NCBI GenBank assembly: GCA_947458145.1
Contig: CANGYM010000007.1
Span: 1 to 33,424, forward strand
DNA from: Alphaproteobacteria bacterium
Lineage (GTDB): Bacteria > Pseudomonadota > Alphaproteobacteria > JAJTHO01 > CANGYM01
Direction: 5' to 3'
Length of the DNA: 33,424 nucleotides
Both the position numbers and the translations under genes were made by a program. Below are positions 990-29,795 of this stretch, piece after piece (position 1 is the stretch's first letter; each line of letters starts with the position of its first letter). Below the pieces are notes generated by a model. That model did not search any database. It saw only the letters and a program-made list of their open reading frames with translations, and was not told the origin of the DNA.

Positions 990-3900
990 ATGACTTTGTT
1001 GACGGCCCTGCACCATGTTACCCGTTATGATTATGATCGCCCGATTATGCTCGGGCCTCAGACCATTCGGCTGCGTCCTGCCCCCCATGCGCGGGCGTTG
1101 GTGGAATCCTATAGTTTGCAGGTCACGCCCAAGCCCCATTTTTTAAACTGGCAGCAGGATCCCTTTGGGAACCACTTGGCCCGCGTGGTGTTTCCCGAGC
1201 CCACCCGTTTTTTGCAGGTTGCGGTGGATCTGGTCACCGACATTCGGGTGTTTAATCCTTTTGATTTTTTCCTAGAAGACACCGCGCAGCACATTCCCTT
1301 TGTCTATGATGCCAGCACCGCCGAAGAGCTGATTCCCTATTTGGAAATCAAAGATCGGGGGCCGCTGCTGACGACCTTTTTATCGGGCATCCCCCGCACC
1401 AAAACCCCCACCATTGATTTTCTGGTGGCCCTGAACCAGCGGGTGCATCATCATCTGGCCTATGGCATTCGTTTGGAGCCTGGGGTGCAGTCCTGCGAAG
1501 AGACCATGGAAAAGCGCAGCGGATCCTGCCGCGATATGGCGTGGCTGCTGTGCCAGATGCTGCGGCATCTGGGGCTGGCCAGTCGCTTTGCCTCAGGGTA
1601 TTTGATCCAATTAAAGGCCGATGTGGACGCCCTCGATGGGCCGAATGGACCCAAGGAAGATTTTACGGATCTGCATGCATGGTGCGAGGTTTATTTGCCC
1701 GGGGCCGGATGGGTGGGGCTGGATCCCACGTCGGGGCTGTTTGCGGGTGAGGGGCATATTCCGTTATGCTGCACCCCCAACCCATCGAGCGCGGCGCCCA
1801 TCAGTGGCGTGCTGGATCCGTGCGAAAGCACGTTGCATCACAGCATGACGGTGACACGCATTCACGAAGATCACCGCGTCAGCAAACCCTATCCCCCGTT
1901 GCTATGGCAGGCCATCGATGATTTGGGCCAAAAGGTGGATCAGGATTTAATCGCCGGTGATGTGCGCCTGACCATGGGCGGGGAGCCGACTTTTGTCTCG
2001 CTGGATGAGCGTGACCACCCCGCATGGGAAACCGCCGCGCTGGGCGGGCAGAAAAAGGCATTGGCCTATACCCTGTTTCAGCCCCTGTGTCCCGCAGGAT
2101 CCGTGCAGCAATTTTCCCATGGGAAATGGTACCCGGGGGAAATTTTGCCCCGCTGGTCCATGGCGTCCTATGGCCGTAAAGATGGATTGCCGATTTGGAA
2201 AAACAGGGCCCGTCTGGCGGACCCCGAAAAGCCCGAGGGCCACACCCCTGAAATGGCCAAGGCGTTTTTGCAGGATTTGGTTCAGGTTTTGGGGGTGTCA
2301 GGAGATGCCATTCTGCCAGCCTTTGAGGATATCCCTTACGCCCTGTGGAAAGAGGGAACTTTGCCGCTGGATGGGGATATTCGCCACGATGACCCGTTCG
2401 AGGCCGCTGAACGTGCCCGCCTGCAACGTCTGTTTGATCAAACCTATAACAGCCCTGCGGGCTATGTCCTGCCCCTGTTTTACAGTGTGGCGCAGGGGGG
2501 GTGGACCAGCGCGTTATGGGCGTTTCGGCGGGATCGTTTGGTGTTGTTGACGGGGGATTCACCGGTGGGATTGCGCTTGCCGCTGTCCAGTTTGCCCCAT
2601 GAGGCCCCCGCCGAACTTTTGCCCGAGCGCAGCCCTGAGGATCAGGGGGATCCCCTGCCCACTTTTGAGGATTTATTGCCGCCCAAGTCTGAAGCCTTCC
2701 GCTGGGACAGCACCGTTCGTACGGCCCTGTGTGCTGAGGTTCGGGGCGGCACGCTGCATTTGTTTTTGCCGCCGTTGTCTTACGCCGAGCATGCCTTGGC
2801 CCTGTTGGCGGCGGTGGAGGCGGTAGCGGAGGCCCAAAACGTGGCGGTGGTGTTGGAGGGGTATCCTCTGCCGGCCGATTTGCGTCTGCAATATTTCAGC
2901 GTCACCCCCGATCCCGGGGTGATTGAGGTGAACATTCAACCCGCCCATTCCTGGGATGATTTAAAAACCATCACGGAAAGGGTTTATGAAACGGCCCGAC
3001 AATCCCGCCTGACTGCCGATAAATTTCTGCTGGATGGCCGGCGCGTGGGCACCGGCGGGGGCAATCACATTGTCACGGGGGCCGCCACGCCGCAGGATAG
3101 CCCGTTTTTGCGCCGTCCCGATTTGCTGAAAAGTTTGCTGACGTTCTGGCAAAATCATCCGTCCTTATCCTATTTATTTTCCGGTCAGTTTATTGGTCCC
3201 ACCAGCCAAGCCCCCCGCGTGGATGAGGCCCGTTTGGACAGTTTGTATGAACTGGACATTGCCCTGTCCCATATTCCCCAAAGGGGCAGCGGGGAGATGC
3301 CGCACTGGTTGCTGGACCGGATGCTGAGGAATCTGTTGGTGGATTTAACGGGCAACACCCATCGGTCGGAATTTTGTATTGATAAACTCTATAGCCCCGA
3401 CAGCCAGCGCGGGCGGCTGGGCCTGCTGGAGATGCGCGGGTTTGAAATGACGCCCCATCCGCAGATGAATTTGCTGCAGGCGCTGTTGATTCGGGCGTGC
3501 ATTGCGGCCTTTTGGCATAAGCCCTATCAGGCCCCTTTGGTGGCGTGGGGTACGCGGTTGCATGATCAATTTATGTTGCCCCATTGTGTGTGGCAGGATT
3601 TTCTGGATGTTTTGGGCACATTGAAACACCATGGGTATGCCTTTGATCCGGTGTGGTTTTTGCCGTTTTTGGATTTTCGTTTTCCCCTGTATGGTACGGT
3701 TCAGGTGGGGGATGTGCGGCTGGAGCTGCGCATGGCCCTCGAGCCTTGGCCCGTGATGGGGGAAGAGCCCGCCCTGGGCGGGGGCACATCGCGGGGGGTG
3801 GATTCGTCATTAGAGCGTCTGCAGGTGGCCGCCCACGGCCTGATCCCCGGGCGTCACATCGTGACGTGCAACCGTTACCCCCTGCCCTTGGTGGCCACAG

Positions 3901-4223
3901 AGGCCATGGATACCTTTGTGGCGGGGGTGCGGTACAAAGCTTGGGCCCCCGCGTCATCCCTGCACCCCACCATTCCCATGCACACGCCGTTGGTGTTTGA
4001 CGTGGTGGATACGCGGTATTCTCGGTCGTTGGGGGGTTGCACGTATCACGTGATGCACCCGGGGGGCCGCAATTACGAACGCCTGCCCATCAATGAAAAC
4101 GAAGCCGAAGGCCGCCGCCTGTCCCGTTTTGAAAAAAGCGGTCATACCGCAGGGGCCTTTGTCCCCAAACCGGCCCTGCACCATCCGGCGTTTCCCTGTA
4201 CGTTGGATTTGCGATGGGGGTGA
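990..4223 (+). CDS. Transglutaminase-like / DUF2126 large protein
   Basis: A 1077-residue protein in two parts. Residues 1-290 are a bacterial transglutaminase-like N-terminal domain and core with a full papain-like triad: Cys180 in GSCRDMAWL, His229 in DLHAWCEVY and Asp245 in GLDPTSG. From about residue 325 (LTMGGEPTFVSLDERDHPAW) to the end it is DUF2126, including the family's conserved EF.IDKLYSP and GRLGLLEMRGFEM blocks at about residues 793-822. There is no signal peptide, so it is probably cytosolic. In other proteobacteria this family usually neighbours a circularly permuted ATP-grasp protein and an alpha-E protein, and the set is thought to act in peptide ligation or modification; the substrate is unknown. 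Neither partner is in this window. The gene converges with an unknown gene whose stop lies five bases away. Confidence 0.9.
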   Translation: MTLLTALHHVTRYDYDRPIMLGPQTIRLRPAPHARALVESYSLQVTPKPHFLNWQQDPFGNHLARVVFPEPTRFLQVAVDLVTDIRVFNPFDFFLEDTAQHIPFVYDASTAEELIPYLEIKDRGPLLTTFLSGIPRTKTPTIDFLVALNQRVHHHLAYGIRLEPGVQSCEETMEKRSGSCRDMAWLLCQMLRHLGLASRFASGYLIQLKADVDALDGPNGPKEDFTDLHAWCEVYLPGAGWVGLDPTSGLFAGEGHIPLCCTPNPSSAAPISGVLDPCESTLHHSMTVTRIHEDHRVSKPYPPLLWQAIDDLGQKVDQDLIAGDVRLTMGGEPTFVSLDERDHPAWETAALGGQKKALAYTLFQPLCPAGSVQQFSHGKWYPGEILPRWSMASYGRKDGLPIWKNRARLADPEKPEGHTPEMAKAFLQDLVQVLGVSGDAILPAFEDIPYALWKEGTLPLDGDIRHDDPFEAAERARLQRLFDQTYNSPAGYVLPLFYSVAQGGWTSALWAFRRDRLVLLTGDSPVGLRLPLSSLPHEAPAELLPERSPEDQGDPLPTFEDLLPPKSEAFRWDSTVRTALCAEVRGGTLHLFLPPLSYAEHALALLAAVEAVAEAQNVAVVLEGYPLPADLRLQYFSVTPDPGVIEVNIQPAHSWDDLKTITERVYETARQSRLTADKFLLDGRRVGTGGGNHIVTGAATPQDSPFLRRPDLLKSLLTFWQNHPSLSYLFSGQFIGPTSQAPRVDEARLDSLYELDIALSHIPQRGSGEMPHWLLDRMLRNLLVDLTGNTHRSEFCIDKLYSPDSQRGRLGLLEMRGFEMTPHPQMNLLQALLIRACIAAFWHKPYQAPLVAWGTRLHDQFMLPHCVWQDFLDVLGTLKHHGYAFDPVWFLPFLDFRFPLYGTVQVGDVRLELRMALEPWPVMGEEPALGGGTSRGVDSSLERLQVAAHGLIPGRHIVTCNRYPLPLVATEAMDTFVAGVRYKAWAPASSLHPTIPMHTPLVFDVVDTRYSRSLGGCTYHVMHPGGRNYERLPINENEAEGRRLSRFEKSGHTAGAFVPKPALHHPAFPCTLDLRWG

Positions 4224-5203: not shown

Positions 5204-5340
5204 TCAAGCGGCGTCCTTGAGGAGGATGGTTTTTGTATACGCGGAGGGTGTGGATCCTTTCAAGGCATAATGTGGGCGGTAAGTGTTATATTTGTGGACG
5301 GCGGTTTTGAGGAGGGCGCGGCCCATTCCCAAAGCCTTCC
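5204..5340 (-). pseudogene. Transposase C-terminal remnant (IS3/IS481-like integrase core)
   Basis: Read on the minus strand, the bases just beyond the antirepressor gene's stop encode about 44 residues that include HKYNTYRPHYALKGSTPSAY and end in LLKDAA before TGA. The YNTYRPHxxLxxxTPxxY block is the hallmark of the extreme C-terminus of IS3 and IS481 transposases, just after the catalytic Glu. The upstream catalytic domain is absent: the frame runs straight into the 3' end of the BRO-N/DinD gene, so this is a 3' fragment left after deletion or recombination. It has no start of its own. It shows that an insertion sequence once sat between the antirepressor gene and the two unknown small genes. 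Confidence 0.7.
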
Positions 5341-6215
5341 TATGGATTGTCCATCCCCGCCTCGCCACGTTTTTTCTGCCCCCTGACGGCTTTGGGCGTG
5401 GTTACGTTTAAATAATTCTCACCGCTCACCACACTTCGCCCCAATTCTGCCTCGGCCTGCTTGCGGGCGGTGCCTGCCACACCGCCGCCGCGCTTGGCGA
5501 CACGGCGATTTTCTGCCAACCCTTCCGGTTGTTCTTTACCGGAAATCTCGGTGGTTACTCTCTCGCCCAACATGGTGAAAATCAATTCCAAATCGGTCAT
5601 ATGATCCCGCAGGTTTACGCCCGATTTTTCTGGTAGGTTCTTATGTTTTTTATATTCTTTTGGCGTCATGCCAAAGGTGGCGCGGGAGATATCAGCAGTC
5701 AGAATGGCGTAATCCTTCTGGCTGGTGAGACCCCGCTGTTTCCATTCATCGGTCAAATCCTGCCGCACCGCCATGCCGCGCAGGCGCTTGTCGATCCAGT
5801 CTTTGGGATAGCCTTTTTCCTCGTAAAGGCGTTTCATGCGCTCTTGCGCCAGTTCAGGATTTTCAATTTCTTGAATGCGTTCATACCCCACCTTCGCCAG
5901 CCAACGCTTGAACGGTTCGGCCCTGGGGGACGGAATAGACTGAATAATCCGCAACAGGGATTCGGTATTGGCGCAATCAGTCGCACGCATTTTTCCGTCA
6001 GGAGCAGGCAGTTTCAACCCGTGACAAAATGTCACGACTTCACTCTCTTCCTCATTCAGCCGCTGTTTCAGCTTGCGCCAATAGGCCCCAGGGTCTGGGC
6101 TTTCGGTGAGTGCGCCTGCCACGTCCACCACCGAAAACCACCATGCACCCTGATGCCAAGTACGGCGGATTTTTTGTTCGTTGAATAAAACAATAGCCCC
6201 GTGCGTTTCGGTCAT
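5340..6215 (-). CDS. BRO-N / DinD-like antirepressor protein (full-length copy)
   Basis: 291 residues. Residues 1-120 are a BRO-N domain, the DNA-binding module of phage antirepressors: IRRTWHQGAWWFSVVDVAGAL near the start and PFKRWLAKVGYERIQE near its end. The C-terminal half (KDYAILTADISRATFGMTPKEY through LRDHMTDLELIFTMLGERVTTE) resembles DNA-damage-inducible protein D. The start is supported by AGGGGAG a few bases before the ATG. It begins 18 bases after the precorrin-2 dehydrogenase stop, so it probably shares the cysI transcript, an odd host for a phage-type regulator. Its first 158 codons recur near 26.2 kb. An insertion-sequence remnant abuts its 3' end. The regulated target is unknown and no LexA box was recognised. 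Confidence 0.85.
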   Translation of the reverse strand: MTETHGAIVLFNEQKIRRTWHQGAWWFSVVDVAGALTESPDPGAYWRKLKQRLNEEESEVVTFCHGLKLPAPDGKMRATDCANTESLLRIIQSIPSPRAEPFKRWLAKVGYERIQEIENPELAQERMKRLYEEKGYPKDWIDKRLRGMAVRQDLTDEWKQRGLTSQKDYAILTADISRATFGMTPKEYKKHKNLPEKSGVNLRDHMTDLELIFTMLGERVTTEISGKEQPEGLAENRRVAKRGGGVAGTARKQAEAELGRSVVSGENYLNVTTPKAVRGQKKRGEAGMDNP

Positions 6216-9819: not shown

Positions 9820-10518
9820 GTGTCTTTTTTGCCTGAGTTTTTAACGGTTCACCTGCCCAGTCTGATGGTGGGGGCCGTGACCACCCTGCAATTAACTTTG
9901 GTGTCTTTTGGCCTGAGCTTGCTCATTGGCCTTATATGGGCGATGATGTGCCTTTATGGCCATCCTGTTGTGGCCAGGGCGGCGAAAAGTTTATCGTTGT
10001 TTTTTCGGGGCATGCCAGAACTGCTGATCATTCTGGCGGTGTATTATCTGCATGGGCCGATTCTGGAAATTCTGACATGGGGGCGCATCAGCCAGTTGTC
10101 GTCGTTTGCGTCGGGTGTTTTGGCGTTGTCCCTGTGTTATGGGGCCTATGCCAACGAAGTGATCCGTTATGCCATCATCACCATTCCCCCCCAGCAGATC
10201 GAGGCTGCGGATGCCTTCGCCCTTTCTGCCAAACGCCGATTCCTGAGAATCATTCTGCCGCAGGCGACCTTTCGCTCTCTCAAAGGTCTGACAAATCTGT
10301 TTTTGTCTTTGATGAAGGACACGGCGCTGCTGTCTGTCATCAGTGTGCCGGAATTGATTCGTATGACGCATCTGAGCATTGCCACCGCCAAGAATCCGTT
10401 CACCTTTTACATGCTTGCGGCGTGTTTGTATTTGCTGATGACCTTTTTTGTTCTGTTCATCATGCGTGTTTTGGACCGTGTTTATTTTTATCGTTTTATG
10501 AGCGAGGATCGACCGTGA
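9820..10518 (+). CDS. Polar amino-acid ABC transporter permease (HisM/HisQ family), orphan
   Basis: A 232-residue inner-membrane permease with about five hydrophobic segments, beginning at LMVGAVTTLQLTLVSFGLSL. The cytoplasmic EAA loop contacts the ATPase and begins at Glu128: EAADAFALSAKRRFLRIILP. The SLFFRGMPELLIILAVYY block is typical of the His/Glu/Gln/Arg transporter family. The start is GTG, with GAGG about 11 bases upstream. No binding protein, ATPase or second permease is adjacent. Instead its stop overlaps the start of metC (TGATG). A link with methionine, cystine or another sulfur amino acid is suggested by that coupling but is inference. Confidence 0.85.
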   Translation: MSFLPEFLTVHLPSLMVGAVTTLQLTLVSFGLSLLIGLIWAMMCLYGHPVVARAAKSLSLFFRGMPELLIILAVYYLHGPILEILTWGRISQLSSFASGVLALSLCYGAYANEVIRYAIITIPPQQIEAADAFALSAKRRFLRIILPQATFRSLKGLTNLFLSLMKDTALLSVISVPELIRMTHLSIATAKNPFTFYMLAACLYLLMTFFVLFIMRVLDRVYFYRFMSEDRP

Positions 10519-11657
10519 TGCACCCCGAAACCCGTTTGGCCCATATGGCCCGCGATGCCCGTCGTTTTGATGGGGCTGTCAATTTGCCTGTGATGCGGGC
10601 CTCCACCGTGTTGTTCGAGGATACGCAGCATCTGAAAACCACCGAAAAAACATGGTGGGAAAAACCTTATTATGGTCGCCATGGCTTAACCCCCACCTTT
10701 GCCTTTGAAGAGGCCATCGCGCAGCTGGAGGGGGGATACAAAGCCATTGCCGTGGAATCCGGTCTGGCGGCTTTAACCTGCGCGTTGTCTGCATTTTTAA
10801 AAAGCGGGGATCATGTTTTGATTCATGATGCGGCCTATGGCCCTGTGCGGCACTATTGTGATGATGTGTTGCGGCGCTTTGGGGTGGAGGTGACGTATTA
10901 TCACCCCAATCAAGATATCGCCGCCCTGATCCGTCCCCATACCCGCGTTTTGCATCTGGAGGCCCCTGGGTCCATTACCTTTGACATGCAGGACATTCCC
11001 GCCCTGTGCGCCCTGGCCCAAAGCCGAGGCATCATCACCGTTCTGGACAACACATGGGCCACCCCCCTGTATTTTCAGGGGTGCGTGGTTGGGGTTGATG
11101 TGGTCACCCATGCAGCCACAAAATATCTGGTGGGCCATTCCGATGCCCTGCTGGGGGTGATGGTGGCCAGAAACGAGGCGGTGTATCACACCCTGAAAAC
11201 AAATGCTGCGCGTCATGGGCACCATGCTGCGCCGGATGATCTGTATTTGGCGCTGCGGGGTATGCGTACTCTGGCCGTCCGATTGGCCCGCCATCAGGAC
11301 ACCGCTGGGCGTTTGATGACATGGCTGGCGGATCATCCCTTGGTGGCGCGGATTTTGTCCCCTGCCTATCCTGAGCATGAAGGTCACGCCCTTTGGAAAC
11401 GGGATTTTTCAGGGGCCAGTGGCTTGTTTTCCTGTGTGATGAATATGGATTATCCGGCGCTGTGTCAGGTTGTGGATCGTTTGACCCTGTTTGGGCTGGG
11501 TTACAGTTGGGGAGGCTTTGAATCACTGGCCGTTCCCTTTGATATGCGCCGCGCCCGCACCGCCCAACCATGGACCGAGGGCCCCGTTCTGAGACTTCAT
11601 GCAGGATTAGAACACCCCGACGATTTGATTGGGGATTTGGCTAACGCTTTGGGGTGA
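10518..11657 (+). CDS. metC: Cystathionine beta-lyase
   Basis: A PLP enzyme of 379 residues that cleaves cystathionine to homocysteine, pyruvate and ammonia in methionine synthesis. The PLP lysine is Lys202 in HAATKYLVGHSDAL. YGRHGLTPTFAFEEAIAQLEG and LDNTWATPLYFQ are typical Cys/Met-metabolism PLP blocks. The same frame is open back to 9936, but that extension lies inside the permease gene. The true start is the ATG at 10518, which overlaps the permease stop and has GAGGA nine bases upstream. It converges with mutS across seven bases. A related cystathionine or methionine gamma-lyase cannot be fully excluded, but the alphaproteobacterial MetC style (FDGAVNLPVMRASTVLFED) is clear. Confidence 0.92.
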   Translation: MHPETRLAHMARDARRFDGAVNLPVMRASTVLFEDTQHLKTTEKTWWEKPYYGRHGLTPTFAFEEAIAQLEGGYKAIAVESGLAALTCALSAFLKSGDHVLIHDAAYGPVRHYCDDVLRRFGVEVTYYHPNQDIAALIRPHTRVLHLEAPGSITFDMQDIPALCALAQSRGIITVLDNTWATPLYFQGCVVGVDVVTHAATKYLVGHSDALLGVMVARNEAVYHTLKTNAARHGHHAAPDDLYLALRGMRTLAVRLARHQDTAGRLMTWLADHPLVARILSPAYPEHEGHALWKRDFSGASGLFSCVMNMDYPALCQVVDRLTLFGLGYSWGGFESLAVPFDMRRARTAQPWTEGPVLRLHAGLEHPDDLIGDLANALG

Positions 11658-18930: not shown

Positions 18931-20700
18931 CTAGGCTTTGGCTTGCGCCCTAAGATGACCTTCACCCGCAAGGGCATTGTCCTTGGGCAAGCTCATATAA
19001 AAAACCGTTCCCTTTCTGGTCGATTCAAACCAAATACGGCCCCCGTGCAGTTCAATGATTTTTTTGGCCATGGGCAAACCAACGCCCGCATTTTCCGTTT
19101 GGGCATTAAGGGATTCGAAAAGAGAAAAAATATGATCCGTATAAAGCTTTTCAATACCGGTCCCATTGTCCTGCACTTTAATCACCCATTCTGTTTCCAG
19201 ATCTTGACAGGATAATCCCACGATGGGGGGAATGCTGGGGTTATGGTCAATCCCATTTTTAATCAGGTGATACAGGGCTTTTTTGAAAGACCCATAATGA
19301 CAAAACACATCGGGAAACACCCCAAACGTTTTGATGCGGGCACCGCGTTTTTTAATGACAGGCAGCAGATCTTTCAAAGCGGCCTGTATCATTTTATGCA
19401 AAGACGTTTCAGGAAAAGGAGGAGCAATCTGAATGTGATCGTACTCTGAAAGGCCTTGTAAACGCTTTAAACTCAGCGTTGTCCATCGTTTGACTTCGGC
19501 CAGTTTTTTTAGGGCGGCCTCGCGTCTTTCCGATTCCTCCAGCGCCACTGTGCTTTGCAAAATGGCCCGCAGAGGATCGGAAAAAACATGGGTTAAACTA
19601 TGGGACAGGGTTTCATACTGCCGCTGCATGCGAACCAAAGCGTCGTGATCGCTGTTGCCATCAAAGGTGCCCAGATGTTCCGTCAAAAAAATCGCTTTTT
19701 CCCGCGTATAATAGATCACCAGACGCTTCATTTCTTCCGTCCAGTCGTTTTCTTCGAAATTGATAATGGCATTTAGGCCAGCTTGCTGCCATTTTTCCGT
19801 ATCATCCAGCATAGAATCACCCCTTAACCCCACAAGATAGGTCCCGTTGGGGTTTCGGCTATCGGCTTTGATGTATTCATTCACCACGTGATAGCCGCTT
19901 TTGGGATGAAATTTCAGACTGATCATCGCCATATGATAGCGCCCATTCAAAAGCATCTGAAGCGCATCGTCGCTATTCTGGGCAATATCAGGTTTAATAA
20001 GAAAAGATTTTTCCAAAAGATCGGCAACCTTTTTGATGGTCCCATCATCCCCTGCCGCCACCAGAACCCGCCATTTGGACACCAGATCCGGCAGATGAAG
20101 GCGCCTATCAATCAGGGATTCTTCGTTAAGAGATGTATCATAGAGCTTTGAGAGTGCGCCCTCTTCTCGTCCCAAAGAAAACCTTTGATCCACCTCTTGG
20201 TCAAAGCGTGCCAAGGCCTTTGATTCATCTGTGGTTTGATTTCTGGATTCAAGCTTTAGTTTTTCCAGATGTTCGTCATAAAGTCTCCGTCGGGTGATGC
20301 CCAAGGCATTGCCAGGGTTTAAGGCCATGTATTTTTTGACATAATCGGATAGAGATTTGGTGCTGAAGGGCTTGGTAATATAGCCTGAGGCCCCAAAGCG
20401 CATGGCCGTGTTGAAATCCGCACTGACTTGGGATGCTGTGATGATCACCACATAGCTTTTGGGATCAAAATCTCTGATTTTTTTTAATAACGTTAATCCC
20501 GACAGGCCCCCTGGAAACGTCAAATCCAAAAAAATAATATCGGGGGCCACTTGGGTAAACAGGGACCATCCCGCCTCTGGATCGTTGGCAAAGCTTTTTT
20601 CGCACTCTGGCAGGGACTGCGAAACAATGGAACGATAGCGCAGATCATCCTCAATGATCAAAATCCGTAACTTTTCGGTTTCCTGAAAAGATTTCCCCAT
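18931..20700 (-). CDS. Hybrid response regulator / histidine kinase with a degenerate second receiver
   Basis: 589 residues, no membrane segments, so a cytosolic signalling protein. Residues 12-125 are a receiver with all key positions: acidic Asp18/Asp19, phosphoacceptor Asp59 (DIIFLDLTF), Thr88 and Lys110 (ITKPFS). Residues 210-335 have receiver-like spacing, but the phosphoacceptor position is Ser261 (HMAMISLKFHPKSG), so it cannot be phosphorylated in the usual way. Residues 361-415 resemble a HisKA dimer with His371 in LTHVFSDPLRAI; Val replaces the usual acidic neighbour. The ATPase domain follows: Asn482 (LIKNGIDHNP), DNGTGI at 511, IFSLFES and GVGLPMAKKIIELHGG at 539. The start has AGGGG six bases upstream. 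It lies 122 bases after tsf. The partner and signal are unknown. Confidence 0.85.
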   Translation of the reverse strand: MGKSFQETEKLRILIIEDDLRYRSIVSQSLPECEKSFANDPEAGWSLFTQVAPDIIFLDLTFPGGLSGLTLLKKIRDFDPKSYVVIITASQVSADFNTAMRFGASGYITKPFSTKSLSDYVKKYMALNPGNALGITRRRLYDEHLEKLKLESRNQTTDESKALARFDQEVDQRFSLGREEGALSKLYDTSLNEESLIDRRLHLPDLVSKWRVLVAAGDDGTIKKVADLLEKSFLIKPDIAQNSDDALQMLLNGRYHMAMISLKFHPKSGYHVVNEYIKADSRNPNGTYLVGLRGDSMLDDTEKWQQAGLNAIINFEENDWTEEMKRLVIYYTREKAIFLTEHLGTFDGNSDHDALVRMQRQYETLSHSLTHVFSDPLRAILQSTVALEESERREAALKKLAEVKRWTTLSLKRLQGLSEYDHIQIAPPFPETSLHKMIQAALKDLLPVIKKRGARIKTFGVFPDVFCHYGSFKKALYHLIKNGIDHNPSIPPIVGLSCQDLETEWVIKVQDNGTGIEKLYTDHIFSLFESLNAQTENAGVGLPMAKKIIELHGGRIWFESTRKGTVFYMSLPKDNALAGEGHLRAQAKA

Positions 20701-26153: not shown

Positions 26154-26647
26154 CATTTTGCAGGGGGGCGCATGACCGAAACGCACGGGGCTATTGTTTT
26201 ATTCAACGCACAAAAAATCCGCCGTACTTGGTATCACGGTGCATGGTGGTTTTCGGTGGTGGACGTGGCAGGCGCACTCACCGAAAGCCCAGACCCTGGG
26301 GCCTATTGGCGCAAGCTGAAACAGCGGCTGAATGAGGAAGAAAGTGAAGTCGTGACATTTTGTCACGGGTTGAAACTGCCTGCTCCTGACGGAAAAATGC
26401 GTGCGACTGATTGCGCCAACACCGAATCGCTGTTGCGGATTATTCAGTCTATTCCGTCCCCCAAGGCCGAACCGTTCAAGCGTTGGCTGGCGAAGGTGGG
26501 GTATGAGCGGATTCAAGAGATTGAAAATCCTGAACCGGCGCAAGAGCGCATGAAAGGCCTTTACGAGGAAAAAGGCTATCCCAAAGACTGGATCGACAAA
26601 CGCCTGCGTGGTATGGCGGTGCGGCAGGATTTGACCGATGAATGGAA
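26036..26647 (+). repeat. Inverted duplicated segment, copy 2 (decayed)
   Basis: Counterpart of 5740-6403 in opposite orientation. The left edge lies about 11 bases after the carB stop. The right edge is inside codon 159 of the BRO-N gene, after GATGAATGGA. The BRO-N half keeps about 97% identity, whereas the first ~90 bases are clearly more diverged and carry a deletion and a frameshift. No target-site duplication or transposase was seen at either edge. Confidence 0.85.
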
Positions 26648-26873
26648 TCGTTTCACCCAGAAAGTCGATGTTGCTTATAAAACCGTTATTTTGCGCACAG
26701 TGAATGGCTTTTTTCATCGGCAGGATGATTCACGCCGTCGTTTACAGGCACATGAGGGATCAGAAATGGGTTCACGCCCTCGAGACATCCTACATTATAG
26801 CCGTATTGATTGGGGAACGAACGTCTTTGATGATGGGTATAGATACCACAAACGCTACAAAAGTAGTGTTTAG
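26172..26873 (+). pseudogene. Truncated second copy of the BRO-N/DinD antirepressor gene
   Basis: The first 158 codons match the full-length gene on the other strand with about six residue changes (for example Glu13 to Ala, and the HQ pair to YH near residue 21). The reading frame is intact through the whole BRO-N domain and the AGGGGGG Shine-Dalgarno-like sequence is kept. After TDEW the similarity stops. The frame runs on for 75 unrelated codons that lie largely antisense to the GFA gene (26686-27117), so this tail is accidental and the DinD-like C-terminal half is missing. It may be dead, or it may make a BRO-N protein able to bind DNA without the effector half. Near-identity in the coding part argues that decay is recent or is opposed. 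Confidence 0.75.
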
Positions 26874-27117
26874 CCACATAAGTGTTGAATTGATACAGTT
26901 GCAGATTCTCTTTCCCTTGCACTATGTGTATAGCATCAATAGAAACTGACGCTACGATGGCACCTTTTCGGCGGCACATAGAACAATCGCATCTGCGTGG
27001 GTTAACGATACCTTCAGGCAGCGTCAGTTCCAACACCACTGAACCACAGTGGCACGTCAGCCGATGCTTGGGCTGTATAACGACATTGCCCACTTGCTGA
27101 ATTCCCATATCTACCAC
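26686..27117 (-). CDS. GFA (glutathione-dependent formaldehyde-activating) family zinc protein
   Basis: 143 residues with the Mss4-like zinc fold of the GFA/CENP-V family. Cysteine sets are visible in order: Cys22-x-Cys24 (LTCHCGSVVLEL), Cys43/Cys45/Cys48 (RRCDCSMCRRKGA) and Cys87-x2-Cys90 (YFCSVCGIYTHH). Members are often named for formaldehyde-glutathione adduct formation, but most have no proven activity, so I assign only the family. The GTG start at 27117 overlaps the stop of the autotransporter gene; an ATG three codons in (27108) is an alternative. No good Shine-Dalgarno sequence precedes either, suggesting coupling to the upstream gene. Its 3' end faces the truncated BRO-N copy. Confidence 0.8.
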   Translation of the reverse strand: MVDMGIQQVGNVVIQPKHRLTCHCGSVVLELTLPEGIVNPRRCDCSMCRRKGAIVASVSIDAIHIVQGKENLQLYQFNTYVAKHYFCSVCGIYTHHQRRSFPNQYGYNVGCLEGVNPFLIPHVPVNDGVNHPADEKSHSLCAK

Positions 27118-29795
27118 GTCAACCGGTACACGGCCAGCGCGTGGGCTTCCTCTTGGCCGGCGACGTTGGCGTAATCTTGGCTGCCGCCGACGGTGAAGGT
27201 CACGCTTTGGGCCTCTCCCACGGGGGTGCTATAGGCGAATTCCAAGGTTTGCTCGCGCCCGCTGGGGGTCAGGTCATAGTTGGTGGTGCGGGATGCATAG
27301 CTGCCGTCATCCTGATACCCACTGATGCTGGATAGCGACCCGCTGCCCGAGCGATTGCGCAGCGGCTGGCGCAGGGATACCATGGCGGCATCGCCAGAGC
27401 TCGCCACATCGGTGGACACCAGACCCAACATCGTGCTGTCCGACGATACATCGTTCATGGCAAAGGCCTGATTTTGGGTTTGAACATCGCTGGTGGCGTA
27501 CATGTAATTTCCCGTCAAAAAGGTCGATGGGGAAAGGCTGTAGGTGGCACTGACCCCTGCAAAGGTGGTGTTGGTGTCATTCACCTCAAACGCCCCGTTG
27601 AACAAAGCGCCCAGAACCTGCCCCTTTTCCCGCATCACACCGGTAAAGGCCGCCACGTCCAGATCATCCGCAATGCGCTGGGCATATTCCAAATCATACC
27701 CCATGGTTTTGTTGTCGTTGACCATGGGCACAGATCCTTCCGCGCTGTAATTTTTGGAAAAAGCAGACCCCACCCGCAGGGCAGAGGTTTGGGACACCGG
27801 CACGCTGATTTGCATCCGGTTGGCATCTTGATCGGCATACACCGCGGGATTCATGGCAAAACCCGCCCGTAACGTGTCGCTGCTTTGATAGGAAAACAGG
27901 GGTGACATGCCGCCGCCCTTCACGTATCCCAAAGACGACGCGGCCACACCCAAGGTATCATCGCGTTTATCGGATGATGCGGACCAGTTATAAATGCTGC
28001 CCGCCTGACCCTGATCATCGCGGTCGGCAAAGGCCGAGGCCGACTGCCACAACGCCCCAAATTTATCCGTCAAATCCGCGGGATTCATGTCATCCACCAA
28101 GGTTTTCACAGGCGCGTTATAAACCCGCCCATACCCATCCAAAAACGCCACACTCCCCGTCTGCAAACTGTCCCCAAAGGCCGAAGACAACAAACCCGAA
28201 GGCATCGGCGTCGTCAAACCGCTGGCGGTGGCGACGGACGTGGCGCCTTGGGGCTTTGTGGCCTCGTCCAAATTCACCAAACCATGACCGTAAACATCAT
28301 CCACACCGGCATCCCCCAAATCCGTGGCGGTATCCAGCAACAATGTCACCACCTGCTCGGGCGTTAAATTGGGAAACGCACCCATCAACACCGCCACAGC
28401 CCCAGAAACATGGGGCGCGGCGAAGGAGGTGCCGCTAACCGTCTGATAACTTCCATTGTTTCCCGTGGTGACGATATTCACCCCAGGGGCCGCCAGACAG
28501 AAATTTTTCGTGTCGCCGCAGCCATTGCTGAAATTGGCAATGGTGTTGTTTTGATCCGTGGCCACGACGTTTAGCCATGTTCCTGTGCCAACAGGGGTAC
28601 CACTGATCACGGGCAAGCGGGCGTCAAAAGAGGATTGATTCCGATTAAAAAGTGTCGTGGCCCCTGGAATGGTGAAAAACGTATTGGCAGGAAGACTTCC
28701 CACGGGGTTGGCATTGGGATTATCGTAAAATAAAATCGCCCCATTGACACTGTTAAATCCATCATTTCCAGCCGCAAAGACAACCACCTTGCTGGCGGCC
28801 TCGGCATTGGCCAAGGCTGTGACATATGCAGAATTAAGAGCCCCTATCGTCTCGGTTTTGGGAATTGGGGTTCCATAAAACACTGTACCGACACCATCAC
28901 GGGGATCCGGCCCCGAAACAAACGTCCGGCTACCCAAACTCAGATTAATGATATCAACAGAGTCATTAGCACGGGCTATATTGAGTGAAGAGGCTAAGTT
29001 TGGGAAACTAAACCCTCTGTCTTGCCCCGCACGAATGGGCAGAATTTTGGCATCATAGGCCACACCATGCATGCCCAACCCGTTGCGAACACTGGCCACA
29101 ACGCCAGAAACCCAGTTCCCATGGTAAATGGTGTCGGGATTGTTAACATTGGTGTCACCACCAACAACATCAACCCCCGCCAGCATATTACCGGCCAAAT
29201 CCGGATGGGTCGTATCAAATCCGGAATCGATCACGGCCACCGTCACACCGGCACCCGTATACCCACGGGCGTAGGCGGAAGAAGCCTTGATCTTCCCCAA
29301 GCCATATTGATTGTTGTATTCCAACGTTTCAAAATTGCTGGGAGGCGTTGGCGTAGGATCTGGATTAGGTGTAGGGTCCGGCGTTGGCGTTGGATCACCA
29401 CCGCCTCCACCCCCGCCACCGCCACCGCCAGCAGCAAGGGCCACGATACCCCCCACCGCAAGACCCCCCAAGACATAGTAAGGAAGATCTGAGGAAACCT
29501 CTTGGGGGGCAGGCTTCGTCTGTTTTGGCTGTTTTTTCTGTTTTTTAGAGGCTGTTTTTTTCTCTGATGGTTTGGGTTTTTCAGGGGTTGATGACTGCGC
29601 CTGAGTCACGGGTTGAGGCGCTGGCTGAGGGACTGGCCGTTGCTGGGGCACAGAGACTGGGGAAGCATTCTGTTCAATCACAATCGTATCATCCGCCATA
29701 ATGGTTGACGACGCGGCGTAGGCAGACATAACCGATTGGGCGCTAAGGATAAAGCTTAAAAAAACGATAGTGCTTTGACGCATAAAAATTTCCAT
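27111..29795 (-). CDS. Subtilisin-like serine protease autotransporter
   Basis: 894 residues, predicted to be displayed on or released from the outer membrane. In order: signal peptide (to about residue 28, SAYAAS); a Pro/Gln-rich stretch (45-66); a Lys-rich stretch (77-96); a hydrophobic segment (YYVLGGLAVGGIVALAAG, 106-123); a run of 11 glycines (123-133); a DPTPTP-type linker (134-152); an S8 peptidase domain (about 165-515); and a C-terminal beta-barrel (about 610-894) ending in the aromatic YRLTW. The triad is Asp190 (AVIDSGFDTTHPDL), His225 (YHGNWVSG) and Ser457 (GTSFAAPHVSG), with oxyanion Asn344 (AAGND). HGNW replaces the common HGTH. The start may instead be Met5. The GFA gene overlaps its stop. 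Substrate unknown. Confidence 0.9.
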   Translation of the reverse strand: MEIFMRQSTIVFLSFILSAQSVMSAYAASSTIMADDTIVIEQNASPVSVPQQRPVPQPAPQPVTQAQSSTPEKPKPSEKKTASKKQKKQPKQTKPAPQEVSSDLPYYVLGGLAVGGIVALAAGGGGGGGGGGGDPTPTPDPTPNPDPTPTPPSNFETLEYNNQYGLGKIKASSAYARGYTGAGVTVAVIDSGFDTTHPDLAGNMLAGVDVVGGDTNVNNPDTIYHGNWVSGVVASVRNGLGMHGVAYDAKILPIRAGQDRGFSFPNLASSLNIARANDSVDIINLSLGSRTFVSGPDPRDGVGTVFYGTPIPKTETIGALNSAYVTALANAEAASKVVVFAAGNDGFNSVNGAILFYDNPNANPVGSLPANTFFTIPGATTLFNRNQSSFDARLPVISGTPVGTGTWLNVVATDQNNTIANFSNGCGDTKNFCLAAPGVNIVTTGNNGSYQTVSGTSFAAPHVSGAVAVLMGAFPNLTPEQVVTLLLDTATDLGDAGVDDVYGHGLVNLDEATKPQGATSVATASGLTTPMPSGLLSSAFGDSLQTGSVAFLDGYGRVYNAPVKTLVDDMNPADLTDKFGALWQSASAFADRDDQGQAGSIYNWSASSDKRDDTLGVAASSLGYVKGGGMSPLFSYQSSDTLRAGFAMNPAVYADQDANRMQISVPVSQTSALRVGSAFSKNYSAEGSVPMVNDNKTMGYDLEYAQRIADDLDVAAFTGVMREKGQVLGALFNGAFEVNDTNTTFAGVSATYSLSPSTFLTGNYMYATSDVQTQNQAFAMNDVSSDSTMLGLVSTDVASSGDAAMVSLRQPLRNRSGSGSLSSISGYQDDGSYASRTTNYDLTPSGREQTLEFAYSTPVGEAQSVTFTVGGSQDYANVAGQEEAHALAVYRLTW

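Follow-up and report, generated by a model that had tools for sequence, protein, structure and literature searches.

The question raised by this locus is whether a protein built like a sensor kinase still acts as a phosphate donor or whether its receivers govern an output of a different kind. The gene lies at positions 18931..20700 on the minus strand of the window, a term used here for the whole stretch of 33,424 bases that was analysed and that corresponds to one whole contig of a 1.41 Mb genome. Its frame runs from 20700 to 18931 and encodes 589 amino acids in the order receiver 1, linker, pseudo-receiver 2, DHp, and CA. Pfam recognizes a Response_reg domain (residues 13-121) and a HATPase_c domain (residues 473-574) in this protein and matches neither HisKA nor a second receiver. 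A full-length AlphaFold2 model, computed from an alignment of two sequences only, reached a pLDDT of 31.2 and gives no guide to how the domains pack.

Receiver 1 (residues 13-121; 20338..20664, on the minus strand as are all features of the gene given below) is matched by PF00072 at 1.8e-20 with a score of 73.6 bits. Its active site comprises the acid pair E17/D18, Asp59 at the phosphoacceptor position (20524..20526, codon GAT), T88, and K110, accompanied by Y107 at K-3. The initial annotation had called this receiver complete and had placed Ser261 at the phosphoacceptor position of the second one; both descriptions hold, and in the second receiver the remaining catalytic residues prove to be replaced as well. 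Separated from receiver 1 by a variable linker (residues 126-204; 20089..20325) that is 44% identical to that of the orthologue and has a dN/dS of 0.33, receiver 2 (residues 206-333; 19702..20085) carries A216/G217 in place of the acid pair, S261 in place of the Asp (19918..19920, codon AGT; Gly in the orthologue), R293 in place of the Thr/Ser, and F315 in place of the Lys. Since every one of these positions is altered, the domain is a pseudo-receiver that has passed beyond recognition by Pfam, which gives no PF00072 match over it at E<=10. Such domains are reported to be common, those without the Asp making up 2.0% of 152,269 sampled members of PF00072 (PMC12632262).

That receiver 2 nevertheless retains a receiver fold is indicated by several comparisons. 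When residues 194-353 alone were searched against 385 genomes of the class, 37 genomes were matched at E<=0.01, a figure that includes the own genome and that of the orthologue and in which, at this threshold over 385 genomes, some chance matches are expected; the best outside match had an E-value of 1.8e-7. A Response_reg domain is present in all nine outside matches scanned, above the Pfam cut-off in eight and below it in the ninth (L099; 26.4 vs 30.2 bits), a tenth (L094) having been excluded because of stops in its translation. Comparison by hhalign of a two-sequence receiver 2 profile with 12 receivers of the own genome, in which no unrelated fold served as a control, returned a probability of 87.5 and an E-value of 3.6e-6 for residues 7-107 of 142. 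Structure prediction, which had been proposed as a check of the second receiver, also yields the fold: AlphaFold2 models residues 208-333 as five alternating strands and helices (pLDDT 87.8, pTM 0.84), from an alignment of 28 rows that consists of receiver 2 of both species together with receivers and that therefore favours this outcome. In a Foldseek search with the model, receiver domains rank at the top (3crn, E 7.3e-8; DivK, 1m5t, TM 0.83), and most of the 50 entries listed are named receivers or regulators, the exceptions including CpaE (4dn6) and the designed protein 9xzo. Sequence and prediction together thus support a receiver fold that would not be phosphorylated in the normal way.

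The connecting helix and DHp region occupy approximately residues 334-430 (19411..19701), as judged from a phmmer search of the PDB, in which the match to a bacteriophytochrome begins at residue 354, and from alignment of the H-box. His371 (19588..19590, codon CAT) takes the acceptor position and is followed by Val372 (19585..19587, codon GTT; Ile in the orthologue), which replaces the H+1 acid to which the general-base role in HisKA kinases has been assigned (PMC7005713). The core was aligned in 52 rows, 49 of which are relatives belonging to the class and the others the orthologue and the window protein, the latter entered twice; in 16 of the 52 the H-box is unaligned. Position 371 is His in all 36 rows with an aligned H-box, and H+1 is acidic in each of the 33 close relatives among these (29 Asp, 4 Glu). 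A second, more diverse set, made up of five kinases of the own genome, two named genome loci, and otherwise viral-contig loci, and including some near-copies among its rows, has an acidic H+1 in 18 of 19 aligned rows; the exception is an Elusimicrobia kinase (L032:2291-3826, plus strand) with Lys at H+1 and a normal N-box Asn. The atypical H-box reported in the initial annotation is thus borne out, as is the choice of His371, to which the alignment offers no rival acceptor. His367 was considered as an alternative and rejected, because 24 of 31 aligned relatives have Tyr, Ser, Arg, Asp, or Ala there.

The CA domain (residues 473-574; 18979..19284; Pfam 1.1e-16) scores 61.6 bits against a HATPase_c cut-off of 26.4, and the earlier view of it as an apparently intact ATP-binding domain is mostly correct. 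The second N-box Asn, Asn482 (19255..19257), is retained together with D511-x-G513-x-G515 and G539-x-G541, and none of the 52 rows departs from N482 or from the glycines of G1 and G2. The first N-box Asn, in contrast, has given way to His478 (19267..19269), a change that the initial annotation does not mention. The first N-box Asn is present in 48 of 49 relatives and in 20 of 20 rows of the diverse set, or in 66 of 67 distinct relatives when two loci counted in both sets (L032 and L053) are entered once, and His478 is found in both the window protein and its orthologue. One kinase fragment (L079; G196:C146:184-525), whose H-box is unaligned, likewise has His at the position of the first N-box Asn. 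The features by which a HisKA kinase is recognized are therefore split in the window protein, which has the acceptor His and lacks both the acidic H+1 and the N-box Asn (V372, H478); the PF00512 profile gives five matches in the own genome at E<=1, and the window protein is not among them. Val or Ile at H+1 occurs solely in the window protein and its orthologue among the rows aligned there, and both also have His in the N-box. With the general base and its N-box partner both lost, the core should not autophosphorylate well, and judged by these residues it is probably impaired as a kinase, a case that His478 strengthens. As the Lys of L032 and the His of L079 illustrate, neither change alone proves a kinase dead.

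A single full-length relative, at 74-75%, exists in another species of the genus, on contig CANGYP010000001.1 of the alphaproteobacterial metagenome-assembled genome RE-18aug17-8. Alignment of this orthologue, a further check that had been suggested, shows that it keeps H371 and H478 and has Ile at H+1. Beyond the genus, the best match in 59 genomes covers the kinase core only (residues 355-580, E 7.3e-25). The family was detected in two of four genomes of the order at 1e-20 and, with at most three candidates scored per genome, in two of 385 genomes of the class at 1e-30 and in one of 378 genomes of a phylum draw at 1e-27; the single hit in that draw, which did not contain the orthologue's genome, is the window itself. 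In the genome_contigs collection, probed with two peptide patterns only, one full-length relative (L031) and two partial ones were found; viral contigs contained none. Comparison of the two species gives a dN/dS of 0.07 in receiver 1 and 0.08 in receiver 2, with 0.10 in the CA domain and 0.03 in the H-box region, where dS is saturated at 2.55. These values are rough because dS exceeds 1 throughout, yet receiver 2 still changes far less than the linker. Chance or sequence decay was accordingly dismissed as the origin of the altered residues: receiver 2 and the DHp region look constrained, and the orthologue keeps the changes.

What such a core might do is suggested by its best solved relatives, the bacteriophytochrome chains 8avv and 8sgk, which match residues 354-581. 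Although their listing names no organism, their residues correspond, with a constant offset of 14, to H532, H533, E536, R539, and H648 of DrBphP from Deinococcus radiodurans, for which reason they are taken as DrBphP and numbered according to PMC8292422. DrBphP has His533 at H+1 and His648 in the N-box, is devoid of kinase activity, and is described as an ATP-dependent, light-activated phosphatase; exchange of the H+1 Asp for His in Agp1 abolished kinase activity, and a sequence analysis by the same authors found that His at H+1 accompanies loss of the N-box Asn (PMC8292422). H648 aligns opposite H478, and the two proteins have in common the acceptor His, a non-acidic H+1, the N-box His, and the Arg at H+7 (Arg378, 19567..19569; Arg539 in DrBphP). 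They differ in their inputs, a light sensor in DrBphP and receivers in the window protein, at H+1, where His stands against Val, and at H+4, where the Glu536 of DrBphP stands against Asp375 (19576..19578). The last difference matters, since DrBphP with the exchange E536D was inactive as a phosphatase (PMC8292422): the Glu or Gln expected at H+4 of a phosphatase of the DrBphP type is absent, and phosphatase action of the window protein is not assured. Asp at H+4 is also seen in L078, a close relative whose H+1 is the usual acid. Restoring the acid in DrBphP (H533D) did not by itself bring back kinase activity (PMC8292422), so that in that protein the lack of activity may have causes beyond the residue pair. 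The two options of the earlier suggestion, a weak kinase or a phosphatase, are thus candidates alongside a phospho-sensor, the phosphatase being weakened by the Asp at H+4.

The analysis establishes which domains are present, which residues have been lost, how seldom such losses occur in the aligned rows, and that the orthologue shares them; from this we infer a protein that has lost autokinase activity, is gated by a receiver, and has a phosphatase or holding output directed at a partner. Specifically, it seems somewhat probable (roughly 0.55) that the core is impaired as a kinase and acts on the phosphate of a partner regulator, as a phosphatase or phospho-sensor, and not as a donor. The usual direction would then be reversed, the input being phosphorylation of, or binding at, receiver 1. 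Receiver 2 would relay the resulting change as a phosphorylation-independent adaptor of the PleD kind, the output gated by receiver 1 being the histidine-kinase core at the C-terminus. In this core the acceptor His, the Arg at H+7, and the nucleotide motifs are still present and the H+1 acid and the N-box Asn have been lost; it would either act as an ATP-dependent phosphatase on the phospho-Asp of its partner or hold on to that phospho-Asp. Speaking against this reading, besides the Asp at H+4, are that the altered residues are seen in two sequences only and that no gene for a partner lies next to this one. The initial annotation had raised the possibility that the receivers regulate the core and are not fed by it, which gains from the architecture and, by analogy, from ExsG of Agrobacterium, where a phosphorylated N-terminal receiver is reported to control a C-terminal kinase core (PMC3899027). 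ExsG resembles the window protein in having these two parts and differs from it in possessing one receiver only and a hexameric, HWE-family core with autokinase activity. PleD provides the parallel for the proposed input: its input module consists of an intact receiver and, after it, a pseudo-receiver (PMC12632262), an order of domains that the window protein shares. The output of PleD is a GGDEF domain, for which Pfam finds no match in the window protein, where a kinase core takes its place. L035, read from its translation as the PleD of the own genome, is related to the window protein at the level of receivers only, with a BLASTP E-value of 3e-6 arising from receiver 1 and without a real match between the second receivers.

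The genomic surroundings were examined for a candidate partner. Upstream of the gene lie rpsB-tsf and downstream purM, and the orthologue sits between purL and typA, all names being read from translations; the immediate neighbours thus differ between the two species, and an operon partner was discarded on that ground. Matches to PF00072 in the own genome number 17, including receiver 1 of the window protein, and those to HATPase_c number 10, read from their translations as two CheA, one GyrB, one MutL, and six kinases, of which the five others have a normal H+1 and N-box. DivK, PleD, CtrA, and CckA are encoded, as read by eye from the translations, together with an HPTransfase-family protein (PF10090) that we take to be ChpT-type. 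A reading of the translations by eye, as distinct from a search with a DivL model, noticed no DivL in the lineage.

Elsewhere in the window, two BRO-N domain proteins are encoded at 5340-6215 (minus strand) and 26172-26873 (plus strand), a gene type associated with phages. Their N-termini are 80% identical over 202 alignment columns and diverge after about residue 158, so that from their sequences the pair looks like a recent duplication. The frame at 9936-11657 (plus strand) matches cystathionine beta-lyase at residues 199-572 only, and its roughly 198 N-terminal residues, which have no Pfam match, point either to a fusion or to a start called too early. A 1077-aa protein at 990-4223 (plus strand) combines a transglutaminase core with a DUF2126 putative amidoligase and has no NCBIfam match at E<=0.001, and an 894-aa subtilase at 27111-29795 (minus strand) carries its S8 domain at residues 181-505, after which a long C-terminal stretch matches nothing in Pfam.

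Three other readings of the kinase core have to be weighed. It is conceivable, though unlikely, that the protein is a pseudo-kinase of the DivL kind, a phospho-sensor whose DHp, neither making nor removing phosphate, attaches to another kinase or to a phosphorylated regulator and relays the signal, with the timing set by receiver 1. DivL is described as an alphaproteobacterial kinase fold that senses phosphorylation without catalysis, functioning although it has neither activity (PMC4211667), and the loss of the autokinase residues, the H+4 Asp, which is the dead phosphatase residue in DrBphP (PMC8292422), and the presence of DivK, PleD, CtrA, CckA, and the HPTransfase-family protein in the own genome fit this reading, as does the observation that no other degenerate kinase was noticed by eye among the translations of the 10 HATPase_c matches. 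Control of alphaproteobacterial CckA is reported to lie with DivK and the pseudo-kinase DivL, in ways that differ between groups (PMC9430884), and it is a guess that the window protein fills a similar place in the control of CckA. However, nothing ties it to DivK or CckA. DivL has a Tyr where the His would be, senses through PAS domains, and binds nucleotide weakly, whereas the window protein retains both His371 and the ATP motifs, features that a pure sensor could do without.

The retained His371 and nucleotide motifs, in a region that looks constrained, would be expected of a slow but working kinase in which His367, one turn before the acceptor, or Asp375 substitutes for the general base. 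His367 is kept in the orthologue, and the Lys at H+1 of L032 sets a precedent in sequence in another gene. We nevertheless consider this improbable: base and N-box Asn have been lost together, the H+1 exchange inactivated Agp1 (PMC8292422), and the His at -4, found in seven of 31 aligned relatives, also accompanies a normal base, which makes His367 no special replacement. Most doubtful of all is a phosphotransferase whose His371 moves phosphate from receiver to receiver and does not draw it from ATP, in the manner of PhyT, which is reported to transfer phosphate from SdrG to PhyR (PMC5898713). His371 is retained while the autokinase pair is lost, and the receiver present in cis could serve as donor, but a pure phosphotransferase would not need the ATP motifs, and an HPTransfase-family protein already exists in the own genome.

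The reading of an impaired kinase core that acts on the phosphate of a partner thus assembles parts each of which is known, their combination with the paired loss being an unusual variant; among the open-access literature matches listed, whose coverage is limited, there was no protein joining a receiver, a pseudo-receiver, and a kinase core. Tentatively, and with lower confidence than in that reading itself, a PleD-like input joined to a kinase-dead core may be seen as a receiver-gated phosphatase or phospho-sensor through which one two-component pathway switches another off, the latter possibly being CckA-ChpT-CtrA. If true, the protein would constitute a natural second test of the DrBphP-derived rule that the acid at H+1 and the N-box Asn are lost together, this time with Asp at H+4 and with Val/His in place of His/His. 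A further implication would be that a PleD-like input drives a kinase fold, forming a direct wire between two pathways in a 1.4 Mb genome with six non-CheA kinases, the window protein included.
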